Below are positions 1,208 through 30,609 of a stretch of 34,348 bases of DNA, one piece after another. The number at the start of each line of letters is the position of its first letter. Positions within the stretch are counted from its first letter, which is position 1. The DNA comes from an uncultured Bacteroidales bacterium (GTDB taxonomy: Bacteria > Bacteroidota > Bacteroidia > Bacteroidales > Paludibacteraceae): NCBI GenBank assembly GCA_902800525.1, contig CADCEV010000020.1, forward strand, positions 1-34,348. Direction: 5' to 3'. The notes beneath the pieces were generated by a model that was given only the letters and a program-made list of their open reading frames with translations, ran no database searches and was not told the origin of the DNA. The position numbers and the translations under genes are program-made.

Positions 1208-2275
1208 TTATGGGCATAGTATCTTGACAATCTCATTGGCTGCCATCATGCGGTAGCGGTCAGAAGAGACAGGTATAGGTTGATAATTCCAATGTCTGGC
1301 TTCCGCTTTTTCGCGAAGTGTCTGCTCGGTGCGTGTCTGTATATCGGGCAAAGTCAGGGTATCGGCAGTGGGTTCTAACAACAAGAGTCGTCCGGCAGCA
1401 CATGCCTCGAAATAGAGCCCTCCGGGTTTGTAGTACTTCTCATGCGGATCGCCCGCCATTGGGAAACCGTCCTTAAGAAGGATAATAAGCGGAAAGCCGG
1501 CTTCCCGAACAACTTTGGCTATCTGTCTTTCCCCCGGACTGATAGCGGCAGTAACTGTAATAGAACCATTCTCTGCTTGACGGAGCACTTCCGATAGTTG
1601 CGCGGCTATCTGTTGCTCGCTTAGCGAGCGGGAACAGATGACAGACTGCTTGTCCGGATAATCCAAGAGAAAGAGATTACCCATCGAGGAGAAGCACAAA
1701 TCTCTCACACGCGTTTCTCTGCGCAAGATGAACAGGTCGGGATTCTGCTGCTTAAGCATAGCGCGACGCGGGTTGTCGTGGATATATTGAATCATCGCGT
1801 CTAACTGCCCTCTGTGCGCGAGTGTGCGGAAAAACGGCGGCTCGAAGAGAGGCGGCTGCGTACCTTCCTCCTCTTTTTGTGTCTCGTCTTCCGGCATCTG
1901 TTTATATTCTCCCGCAGATGGCATCTGCGGGGCTATACTGACAGATGCGGGTAAGAAATGTCGCCATCCTTGACGCATGCCTCGCGCTATCTCCTTGATG
2001 GTGACACCACAATCATCGGTAATATATAGCAGCACGTGGATATGGTCGGGCATCAATTGTTTGGCAAGAAGGCGGACGTATGGTCTGAGTTGCTGAATAT
2101 GTTCCAAATCATGCGATATAGCTCTTCCTAAATCAGTTGGCAAGCATCGAGGTTCTTCGTGATCAATAGTTAAGTTTCCCAACAACGGTTGCCTGCCGCT
2201 AATCACGAAAGTGACATGGTATATCCCTATACCCTTGAAAATATCTTTATGTCGCTTCCAAACGAATCGTCCCAT
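1208..2275 (-). CDS. REP-associated tyrosine transposase (RAYT, Y1_Tnp family) with extra C-terminal domain
   Basis: The N-terminal half (about residues 1-185) has the features of Y1 single-strand transposases of the IS200/RAYT type. The HUH metal-binding motif is MPDHIHVLLY (H78, H80), and the presumed catalytic tyrosine is Y164 in IQYIHDNPRRA. RAYTs nick and move REP hairpins as single-stranded DNA. Residues 190-355 form a second region (AGFPLIILLKDGFP, then YFEACAAGRLLLLEP) that standard IS200 transposases of about 150 residues do not have. I do not recognise its function; the alpha/beta look suggests a Rossmann-like fold. Residues 118-130 (MPSAGEYKQMPED) are encoded by a palindromic repeat that also occurs upstream of the gene. 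It has its own promoter, a copy of the tRNA-Ala promoter. Confidence 0.85.
   Translation of the reverse strand: MGRFVWKRHKDIFKGIGIYHVTFVISGRQPLLGNLTIDHEEPRCLPTDLGRAISHDLEHIQQLRPYVRLLAKQLMPDHIHVLLYITDDCGVTIKEIARGMRQGWRHFLPASVSIAPQMPSAGEYKQMPEDETQKEEEGTQPPLFEPPFFRTLAHRGQLDAMIQYIHDNPRRAMLKQQNPDLFILRRETRVRDLCFSSMGNLFLLDYPDKQSVICSRSLSEQQIAAQLSEVLRQAENGSITVTAAISPGERQIAKVVREAGFPLIILLKDGFPMAGDPHEKYYKPGGLYFEACAAGRLLLLEPTADTLTLPDIQTRTEQTLREKAEARHWNYQPIPVSSDRYRMMAANEIVKILCP
1893..1930. repeat. REP-like palindromic element inside the RAYT gene
   Basis: The core is a 9-1-9 palindrome, CCGCAGATG-G-CATCTGCGG, at 1912-1930, preceded by GGCATCTGTTTATATTC. A diverged copy sits at 2327-2362 upstream of the RAYT start. 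In the RAYT reading frame it encodes MPSAGEYKQMPE, so it is carried in frame. This placement fits a RAYT-associated REP, but that link is inferred. Confidence 0.65.
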
Positions 2276-28616: not shown

Positions 28617-29564
28617 TTAGTCATTTTTTTTGTTTTTTGCCCTTGGATGGGCCTCCATATACGCTTTTTTCACCTGTTCGAAGGTCGTATGGGTGTAAAC
28701 TTGGGTGGTACTGAGGGAGGCATGACCCAGTAGCGTTTGGATAGTTCGGATGTCTGCTCCGTTGTCCAACATCGTGGTGGCAAACGTATGACGAAGGACA
28801 TGGGGAGAATGTTTTTTGAGGGTCGATACTTCTCCCATACGCGTGCGCACGATATTATATAAGGTGTTTTTCGTCATCGGGACTATTTCGCCGGAACGGT
28901 TTTTCTTCACAAAGAAAGTTTGCTCGCTTTTTGTACCTGGTGTATGCCCTTGCACGTCCTCTCTTGCTATCCGGTACTCTTTTATCTGCGTAATCAGTTT
29001 GTCACCGATAGGCACTACGCGCTCTTTGCGGCGTTTACCGAAAATCCGAACCTGCCCTTGGTCCAGATCCAAATCCGCATCCGTCAGACCCAACAACTCC
29101 GCCTGACGCATTCCCGTTTGGTACAGCATCTCGATAATCAGCGCATCGCGGAGATTCTCAAAATAATCCTTCTCATCCGACTGTTGAATACTGACCGCCG
29201 AACGCGCCTCTTCCTCCTCCATCTCCGATTCGCGGAAGAAGACCGGCAACGGTTTGTCGGCTTTAGGCGGGGTCACGCGCGCGGTGATATCTTTCGACAC
29301 TTTTCCCAAACGCAGAAGGTACTTATAGAAACTGCGGAGCGCCGATAATTTCCGTTTGACCGAACGAGGAGACTGTTTCTCTTTCTCCAACATCTCCAGC
29401 ATCCATGTCTTCACGTCATCCTCACCGACATCCTTCGGGTCAAACTCTTCCGGCTCCCATCCCAAGAACCGGCAGAAGTCCCGCAAATCATCGCGGTAAG
29501 CCTCTACAGTACGCTGAGAATACTTCCTATCTATAGCTATATAATCCAAAAAATGCTGAATCAT
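28617..29564 (-). CDS. xerC: Tyrosine recombinase XerC/XerD
   Basis: 315 residues. The N-terminal SAM-like DNA-binding domain starts MIQHFLDYIAIDRKYSQRTV. The catalytic domain has R153 (GMRQAEL), K177, H255 and R258 (HVLRHT), H281 (LLGHASLS) and nucleophile Y290 (TTQVYTH). It resolves chromosome dimers at dif; which of XerC or XerD it corresponds to cannot be settled here. An acidic stretch (FFRESEMEEEEARSAVSIQQ, about 109-128) sits between the domains and makes the protein slightly long. Only 4 bp separate the -7 box from the start codon, so the mRNA may be leaderless. Confidence 0.94.
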   Translation of the reverse strand: MIQHFLDYIAIDRKYSQRTVEAYRDDLRDFCRFLGWEPEEFDPKDVGEDDVKTWMLEMLEKEKQSPRSVKRKLSALRSFYKYLLRLGKVSKDITARVTPPKADKPLPVFFRESEMEEEEARSAVSIQQSDEKDYFENLRDALIIEMLYQTGMRQAELLGLTDADLDLDQGQVRIFGKRRKERVVPIGDKLITQIKEYRIAREDVQGHTPGTKSEQTFFVKKNRSGEIVPMTKNTLYNIVRTRMGEVSTLKKHSPHVLRHTFATTMLDNGADIRTIQTLLGHASLSTTQVYTHTTFEQVKKAYMEAHPRAKNKKND

Positions 29565-29568
29565 GCTG

Positions 29569-29599
29569 CAAAATTACTACATTATTTTGACATACGCAA
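29569..29599 (-). promoter_or_regulatory. Promoter of xerC
   Basis: Minus strand: TTGCGTATGTC, then TAATTTTG complementary to 29569-29576, with 23-bp spacing. The ATG begins at 29564. Confidence 0.83.
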
Positions 29600-29687
29600 G
29601 AAAAAGTTCACAAATTCACCAAATTAAACAAAGATTTATTGTTTTACCCGTAAATTGAACGAATTATTCATGGCGGGCACAAAACGA

Positions 29688-29719
29688 AAAAGCGCCGGAC
29701 TTCAGAGTCTGACGCTTTT
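29688..29719 (-). terminator. Stem-loop with T run (orphan terminator)
   Basis: AAAAGCG...CGCTTTT with an inner GGACT/AGTCT stem. The minus strand continues TTTTTCGTTTTG, which fits termination of a minus-strand transcript from 29720-29935. No convincing gene is present there: the only frame is 58 codons without an ATG. It may end a small RNA or be a relic. Confidence 0.55.
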
Positions 29720-29935
29720 CTTGTATAAGTATAAAGGCTCGTTTATTTCACACGCGCACCTTGTATCTTCTAATTCGGTTACCACAAGATCATCAAAGTC
29801 ACTTGCCTGATAATTATCGGCACGAAAAAAAACGGTGAAAAAAATCGTTCGAGCGAAGCGAGATAAGAATTTAACAAATTAAACTAATTTTTTCTTTAAG
29901 TCTAAAATTATCAAAAATTAAGGAAAATTTATTTT

Positions 29936-30143
29936 TGAACACCCTGAACACCTGAACACCCTACTATATAAACTCACACACACGCGTGTGTGTCCTTTAG
30001 AAAAAGGGTGTTCACCCGTTCACCTGTTCACGGTAGACCGGGCGGACAGGGTGACAGGGTGACACCCTTTCCGTAAAATACATACACCCACGCGCGTGTG
30101 TGAGTTTATAAAAAAGGGTGTCACCCTGTCACCCCGTCACCCT
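29936..30143. repeat. Iteron-like and inverted-repeat region with two related modules
   Basis: Module 1 starts with TGAACACC repeats at 29936, 29945 and 29953, then TATAAACTCACACAC and an 18-bp palindrome ACACACACGCGTGTGTGT (29976-29993). It ends with GTTCACCC-type repeats every 8 bp at 30010, 30018 and 30026. Module 2 has ACAGGGTG twice (30046, 30054), a perfect 22-bp inverted repeat (30049-30070 with 30113-30134), the palindrome CACGCGCGTG (30089-30098), GTGTGTGAGTTTATA, and GTCACCC repeats every 8 bp at 30120, 30128 and 30136. The modules point in opposite directions. No ORF crosses the region. Confidence 0.8.
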
Positions 30144-30147
30144 GAAT

Positions 30148-30423
30148 GCCGATTGGCAATCGGCAGAACTGCCAAGAAGGGATAGCCGGATAAGATCCGG
30201 CACTAATGGACGAAGAGGAAAGGGAGAAAGAGACGAAAGAGACGTGACGTAGATGTCCGTAATGGTCGCGAGATGGTCGCGGGATTGACACGTAAATGGA
30301 GGGTAATTCTTAGCCCTCAAGGACACGATTATTTGGCAAAGCCAAATTTTGAGAATTGAGAGTTGAAAACCGGCATGTGAAGCCGGGCAATACGAAAAAG
30401 AAAATACCGGCATTAAATGCCGG
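30148..30423. repeat. Array of six or seven different short hairpins (palindrome array 2)
   Basis: The clearest stems are GCCGATT-GGC-AATCGGC (30148-30164), GCCGGAT-AAG-ATCCGGC (30185-30201), ATTTGGC-AAA-GCCAAAT (30331-30347), CCGGC/GCCGG (30370-30386) and CCGGCAT-TAA-ATGCCGG (30407-30423). A weaker GAGGG/CCCTC stem lies at about 30299-30318. After stems come linkers ACTAATGGACGAAGAGG and GTCAATGGACAAAG, close to the linker AATGGACGAAGCGG in the array at 10290-10452. Confidence 0.7.
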
Positions 30424-30451
30424 GTCAATGGACAAAGTTAAAATATAGGAA

Positions 30452-30506
30452 GTTTGAAAGTTGTTTGAAGGTGGTTTGAAAGTTGTTTGAAGGTGGTTTG
30501 AAGGTT
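30452..30506. repeat. 22-bp tandem repeat, 2.5 copies
   Basis: The unit GTTTGAAAGTTGTTTGAAGG + TG occurs at 30452-30473 and 30474-30495, then GTTTGAAGGTT. The unit itself is made of GTTTGAA half-units, which suggests slippage expansion. It lies just upstream of the LamG-gene promoter. Confidence 0.85.
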
Positions 30507-30535
30507 TATAATTAAACATTTTTTCTCAAAAAAAT

Positions 30536-30566
30536 TTGCGTATGTGCGAAATTTTTTGTAATTTTG
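30536..30566 (+). promoter_or_regulatory. Promoter of the short ORF and LamG-protein gene
   Basis: TTGCGTATGTGCG at 30536 and TAATTTTG at 30559-30566, with 23-bp spacing. It is followed by a leader of about 38 nt to the first ATG. Confidence 0.85.
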
Positions 30567-30609
30567 CACCCGAATTGGTATATAAAACAAATACTTACTT
30601 TATATCATC

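Follow-up and report, generated by a model that had tools for sequence, protein, structure and literature searches.

Paired iteron arrays in a Paludibacteraceae genome are most likely orphan replication origins of VapE-family helicases

In iteron plasmids, tandem repeats bound by the initiator lie next to an AT-rich region. Here, we describe two adjacent repeat modules in the genome of an uncultured gut bacterium of the Paludibacteraceae (assembly GCA_902800525.1), found in a 34,348-nt stretch of contig CADCEV010000020.1 that was analysed as a whole (hereafter, the window), and compare them with the arrays located directly 3' of vapE, a helicase-family gene, in related bacteria. The origin of phage-inducible chromosomal islands (PICIs), as outlined in PMC6092414, consists of two iteron sets around an AT-rich region, directly 3' of rep. 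For the Staphylococcus aureus pathogenicity islands (SaPIs), PMC7581432 describes a Rep protein that reads the iterons through its C-terminal domain. The same source reports that in the staphylococcal cassette chromosome mec (SCCmec) the direct repeats of the putative origin 3' of the helicase gene, and not the inverted ones, are required for binding of Cch2, whose isolated C-terminal domain binds.

By layout and homology, the arrays considered here can be said to resemble the PICI/SaPI replication module: relatives encode a homologue of the VapE/PriRep-type helicase and show the origin layout 3' of vapE, while the window has iterons and a spacer, with no initiator gene, as the first-pass annotation had already stated. 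Unlike PICIs and SaPIs, the Bacteroidales arrays show a CA/CG core palindrome, exchange of iteron/wing cassettes and many gene-less copies. Moreover, no tyrosine integrase match (PF00589) was found within 15 kb of the listed vapE matches on the same contig in 14 genomes, some contigs being short, and for this reason we do not class the arrays as PICIs. Six genomes (G000, G021, G034, G086, G118 and G073) hold only two PF00589 matches in total, and a tblastn search with the Xer protein of the window had no match in 80 vapE loci, serine integrases not having been searched for. With SCCmec Cch2, the arrays share direct repeats downstream of a helicase gene; however, Cch2 has three AAGTG iterons, whereas here 39 different 7-mers occur over 53 loci, in two inverted arrays. 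Iteron plasmids likewise have tandem repeats beside an AT-rich region, but the initiator here would be a VapE/PriRep helicase and not a RepA-type protein; no plasmid record in PLSDB matches the region.

Both modules, M1 (29936-30031) and M2 (30041-30142), run from iterons through a spacer with a CA/CG core to inverted iterons (Table 1). The outermost left iteron of M2, GGCGGAC, is of a different type, and thus M2 mixes two iteron types. M2 also contains a perfect 22-bp inverted repeat (30049-30070 and 30113-30134) around a 42-nt core, and the two modules are linked by an exact 15-bp inverted repeat (29967-29981 and 30096-30110). The repeats listed in the first-pass annotation, among them the 8-9-bp ones, were all present, and its inverted repeats and palindromes, including CACGCGCGTG, proved exact. 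When all 34,348 bases were searched for exact iteron palindromes, defined as a tandem pair of 6-mers together with its inverted counterpart, every match fell inside 29936-30144; the same search gave none in 40 shuffled versions of the full window that preserved its dinucleotide content. The genes flanking the modules are divergent (a tyrosine recombinase at 28617-29564 on the minus strand and a large open reading frame from 30722 on the plus strand); since the modules sit between the starts of these genes, they do not represent the 3' terminus of a local gene. Similarity of the window to its nearest relative stops at 29664, upstream of the modules, and therefore there is no empty site to compare; the landing site that the first-pass annotation had offered as one option thus gains no support.

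The TGAACACC iteron of M1 is also found at the 3' end of the vapE genes of loci L106 and L133, and the GGGTGAC iteron of M2 is the iteron of the vapE genes of L098, L099 and L100. The vapE loci are the best 80 of 369 relatives from a reference-genome scan, mostly from Paludibacteraceae and other Bacteroidales metagenome-assembled genomes (MAGs); 17 of 102 vapE frames were cut at or shortly past their end by contig ends. By an exact criterion, an array was present at 46 of 64 distinct vapE stop regions. None appeared in 1280 shuffles, and of 429 ends of other genes from the same loci, 7 qualified, among them one that repeats a vapE-array iteron and two A/T-rich repeats. An iteron was called at 53 loci, with a spacing mostly of 7-9 nt (163/169). 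The spacer has a median length of 54 nt and a higher AT content than the arms (medians 0.61 and 0.40; spacer higher in 46/53), and in 27 of the 53 loci the first iteron begins before the vapE stop codon ends. The first-pass annotation had likened the repeats to iterons of the initiator-bound type and had suggested a check for adjacent primase or helicase genes; both ideas are borne out by the relatives, which carry such arrays directly 3' of a helicase-family gene.

What is new here is that the iteron and the winged-helix tip of VapE co-vary; in open-access literature titles or abstract openings, no description of iterons at Bacteroidales vapE genes was found. The clearest illustration is given by L102 and L106, two vapE copies in one MAG, whose proteins are 95% identical and differ almost exclusively in the last 50 residues, and whose iterons are GGCTGAC and TGAACA, respectively. 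Their DNA identity is 90-100% until some 200 nt short of the stop codon, drops to 52-78% across the tip and the array, and is again 90-100% as far as about +1135. By eye, the similarity starts at a promoter-like TTTG and stops at a terminator-like hairpin, with no clear target duplication. L105 and L108 show the same pattern upstream of the stop codon; their downstream sides are not comparable because L105 stops 111 bases past the stop codon.

The covariation counts exclude 12 of the 65 loci, for low caller score or by name (L111, L118, L122, L123, L136, L141, L157, L162, L163, L169, L178 and L179), while L119, L148, L159, L156 and L146 were retained by name regardless of caller score; L105 is absent because loci with fewer than 130 bases past the stop codon were excluded. 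Among pairs whose ATPases are at least 0.9 identical, tip identity was 0.82-1.00 when the iteron was the same (13 pairs) and 0.41-0.74 when it was different (55 pairs), 11 pairs of intermediate iteron similarity (tip 0.48-0.94) being placed in neither group. The two groups were also separate at an ATPase identity of 0.7-0.8 (0.75-0.84 in 4 same-iteron pairs versus 0.23-0.72 in 241 different-iteron pairs). Over all 1378 pairs, a partial Mantel test of the tip given the ATPase gave a partial correlation of 0.20 (1/2000 permutations). Along the protein, same- and different-iteron pairs of the at least 0.9 group differed by no more than 0.02 over residues 1-324, except for 0.15-0.16 at a variable stretch (109-132), and diverged at residues 361-384 (0.28 and 0.62, the latter for 373-384) and in the tail (0.44). 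Residues 372, 376, 379 and 382 were identical in all same-iteron pairs of this group and in less than 10% of its different-iteron pairs; in the modelled protein, they map to the wing and to where the recognition helix ends.

Relatives with long open frames carry the Pfam VapE-like domain (VapE-like_dom). Among solved structures, the nearest relative is 7pds ('The structure of PriRep1 with dsDNA'), both by sequence (E 5.6e-17) and by fold (E 2.3e-14, TM-score 0.61-0.63); the fold search returned 46 hits at E <=0.001, the others being the NrS-1 C-terminal region, the African swine fever virus PrimPol, D5 and, in last place, the SaPI5 primase-helicase 7ola (E 9.3e-4). In a second model, built from 49 sequences (mean pLDDT 81), the predicted C-terminus comprises a strand (340-342), two helices (344-355 and 363-372) and two further strands (376-380 and 385-392), matching the strand-helix-helix-hairpin arrangement found in winged helices. 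The primase-like BT4734-like N-terminal domain was present in all three long proteins scanned (L166, L172 and L176) and was undetected in five shorter frames scanned (408-505 aa), a separate primase gene not having been searched for. At the level of the order, a relative at E 1e-20 was found in 25 of the 198 genomes; among viral contigs, 2 of 28 candidate stretches encode a relative. We would also like to mention the neighbourhood of vapE. Downstream of it, L102 (7682-10178) and similar loci encode a number of small proteins whose N-termini have a motif in common, as judged by eye; six of them were scanned without a Pfam match, and nine small vapE neighbours received no convincing function from PHROGs. 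A DUF5675 protein is encoded downstream of vapE in L080 and L088.

Taken together, we suppose, with a probability of roughly three in four, that each module is a binding site of the replication-origin type for a VapE helicase and that the pair in the window represents gene-less, orphan origins. The two would then most likely be tandem sites of different specificity, either relics of two VapE elements or pieces copied without their gene, and the modules indeed look like the mobile-element relic that the first-pass annotation had proposed. In an intact element, VapE, an AAA+ helicase that would assemble into a ring, would use its C-terminal winged helix to contact the direct iterons to the left and right of the spacer; it would then melt this AT-rich segment, load itself and initiate copying of the element. 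Reading of the iteron would fall to the winged-helix tip of about 45 residues, which combines the last part of the recognition helix with the beta-hairpin wing; along with the array downstream, this tip would be inherited or swapped as one specificity cassette of about 290 bp.

Several observations weigh against this interpretation. No VapE coding tail or other vapE sequence was found near the modules (29000-30600), and the CA/CG cores are not accounted for. At 18 of the 64 vapE ends the array misses the strict test, most of these ends showing imperfect arrays by eye and two (L123 and L136) belonging to frames that end inside the gene. Among more distant Bacteroidales, only 9 of 27 readable vapE ends pass it, with L203, L204, L209 and L212 among the clear passes and others doubtful; some of the matches are remote from the stop codon or fall within A/T-rich repeats. 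As for the covariation, the groups overlap at an ATPase identity of 0.8-0.9 (same iteron 0.56-1.00, 8 pairs; different 0.38-0.81, 74 pairs), and below 0.7 the same-iteron group shrinks to two pairs (tip 0.27 and 0.44), equalled by many different-iteron pairs. The partial correlation of the tip over all pairs is modest, an effect of the ATPase persists (0.12; 66/2000), and the sequences are related rather than independent, so that kinship inflates both values.

The genome itself holds a family of such arrays. Similarity search, reading of the matches and a core scan revealed nine arrays and one half array, and none of them adjoins an intact vapE; arrays with other cores could have escaped this inventory. 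The similarity search with the region gave 15 matches on seven contigs, and the core scan gave 16 matches versus 2 with a reversed control pattern; 13 of the 16 fall in arrays, and the other three (two on C4 and one on C13) were inspected and are without iterons. The iteron types are TGAACACC, GGGTGAC, GGCTGAC, GGCGGAC, GAGCAGAT and ATGACAG, and the arms within one array are largely alike, although the arrays differ from each other. Immediately before four arrays (C6, C12, C19 and C2) stands what is left of the 3' end of a broken vapE; no such remnant was found at the window, C5 or C14 copies. A search of this genome with the full vapE model found only two C-terminal remnants and a 5' half that is cut by the end of its contig; a DUF3874 search was empty, the DUF3874 model matching the VapE tail only below its cut-off. 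Within the genus, the C6 remnant tail has matches in 33 of 101 genomes, part of these matches being remnants themselves. Phage records were tried as an identity for the C-terminal remnant and rejected. The right half of the C6 array (G000:C6:102447-102589) is partly duplicated in tandem, as replication slippage at the palindrome would give. Arrays of the sister genome are mixed as well: L032 combines GGGTGAC with GGCGGAC, L036 combines GGCTGAC with GGCGGAC, and L041 consists of two unrelated half arrays. Because M2 and these sister-genome arrays mix iteron types, decay and recombination, rather than use, are suggested for the window copies.

Keeping in mind the symmetry of the arrays, one may ask whether base pairing or protein binding maintains them. 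A hairpin of RNA or DNA, such as a terminator or a structured vapE 3' untranslated region, would be consistent with the complementary arms, with the arrays beginning at the stop codon and with spacer stems longer than those of shuffles (mean 6.6 versus 5.0; 44/53 loci exceed their own shuffle mean). Nevertheless, such a hairpin appears extremely improbable to us: iteron copy numbers are unequal between the arms in 24 of 53 arrays, the bases between iterons are complementary in 51/75 mirrored, 47/68 non-mirrored and 44/60 same-arm comparisons, with no mirrored excess of the sort that selection for pairing should leave, none of nine Rfam matches in the window at gathering scores lies at the module site, and the window copy is placed between the starts of divergent genes and not at a gene end. 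The alternating core, too, is longer than in shuffles (mean run 13.2 versus 7.0; 48/53 exceed their own shuffle mean). In nine relatives with long proteins (L165-L176; Prevotella, Muribaculaceae and others), the iterons are kept and the AT-rich spacers are longer (82-104 nt), while alternating runs reach only 4-9 in seven of the nine, L166 and L168 keeping 12 and 14. The lack of a mirrored excess, the unequal arms and the short core in these seven relatives favour duplex sites recognised by a protein, the alternating core being a lineage feature. Cruciforms and Z-DNA, which the first-pass annotation had raised as possibilities, are therefore not supported as the essence of the region.

If a protein reads the arrays, they might also be autoregulatory operators through which VapE, or a small upstream helix-turn-helix (HTH) protein, controls downstream genes, with no origin function. 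Several loci do place arrays between vapE and co-directional small downstream genes, L083 (above the Pfam cut-off) and L080 (below it) have a small HTH_3-like gene upstream, and cassette coupling would equally fit a repressor and its operator. However, the covarying protein is a helicase of the PriRep1 kind, the layout matches that of described PICI origins, and the C-terminal domain of SaPI Rep, according to PMC7581432, acts on iterons just 3' of rep; we thus find the operator explanation conceivable, if unlikely. Similarly unlikely, in our opinion, is a role for the gene-less arrays, several of which are still joined to a VapE wing-coding tail, as a silent cassette bank whose wing and origin would be swapped jointly into an intact vapE by recombination, altering which elements can cross-replicate, or as titrators of incoming VapE in a repeat-based incompatibility defence. 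It is much harder to see the palindromes as repetitive extragenic palindromic (REP) elements spread by a REP-associated tyrosine transposase (RAYT), with the proximity to vapE being secondary. Genes for RAYT-like proteins, which score below the family cut-off, are indeed present in the window (1211-2275), next to the C19 copy and in the vicinity of one vapE (L097), and the small repeats around the modules occur widely in the genus, in part copied along with the arrays. Still, the arrays are about 100 bp long, with 7-9-nt iterons that track the VapE tip, while PMC3733652 characterises REP elements as palindromes of 20-40 bp; the first iteron precedes the end of the vapE stop codon in the 27 loci counted above, and the window protein has no Pfam family. 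Given the size of the iteron arrays and the distance of about 28 kb between the modules and the RAYT-like gene of the window, we rejected RAYT/REP as the identity of the arrays; a RAYT may nonetheless be the mover that spreads orphan arrays.

Table 1. Repeat features in and beside the two modules of the window
Feature	Coordinates	Strand	Basis
M1 left iteron array, 3 x TGAACACC	29936..29960	+	exact copies at 29936, 29945, 29953
M1 spacer, 46 nt, AT-rich flanks around 18-bp palindrome ACACACACGCGTGTGTGT (29976-29993)	29961..30006	.	exact palindrome; spacer composition of relatives
M1 right iteron array, three inverted copies: GTTCACC 30010, GTTCACC 30018, GTTCAC 30026	30007..30031	-	
M2 left iteron array: GGCGGAC 30041-30047, GGGTGAC 30049-30055, GGGTGAC 30057-30063	30041..30063	+	
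M2 spacer, 56 nt, core CACGCGCGTG (30089-30098)	30064..30119	.	exact palindrome
M2 right iteron array, 3 x GTCACCC	30120..30142	-	exact copies at 30120, 30128, 30136
Mosaic of small repeats beside the modules, genus-wide	30145..30330	+	43/101 genus genomes match part
Constant direct repeat ATGGTCGCGAG/ATGGTCGCGGG	30262..30283	+	11 relatives have it 99-514 nt 3' of vapE

Regarding the flanks, the mosaic beside the modules is partly common to the C5, C6 and C14 copies and was partly copied along with the arrays. The 11-nt direct repeat GGTCGCG...GGTCGCG occurs in relatives L099, L107, L108, L112, L118, L121, L122, L124, L129, L133 and L137. All 12 matches to this pattern in 761 kb of vapE loci are located within the distance range given in Table 1, on the 3' side of vapE in 11 loci, and single GGTCGCG motifs number 34 in 30 kb downstream of vapE versus 35 in 508 kb elsewhere (20/50 loci); we read the direct repeat as a candidate second binding site. 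As to the RAYT-like proteins, the window one is encoded on the minus strand and the others at L014 (9411-10514) and L097 (5527-6573); they score 27.7 (window), 33.8 (L014) and 22.0 (L097) bits against an NCBIfam cut-off of 80, and the window protein had no relevant match among PDB chains. The RAYT-like gene at the C19 copy adjoins it directly.

Finally, the interpretation of the modules as VapE origins offers a function-linked reading both for an unexplained family of Bacteroidales repeats and for the obscure vapE genes next to them. Natural pairs such as L102 and L106, near-identical outside the wing and the iterons, make the DNA recognition code of this helicase family testable residue by residue.
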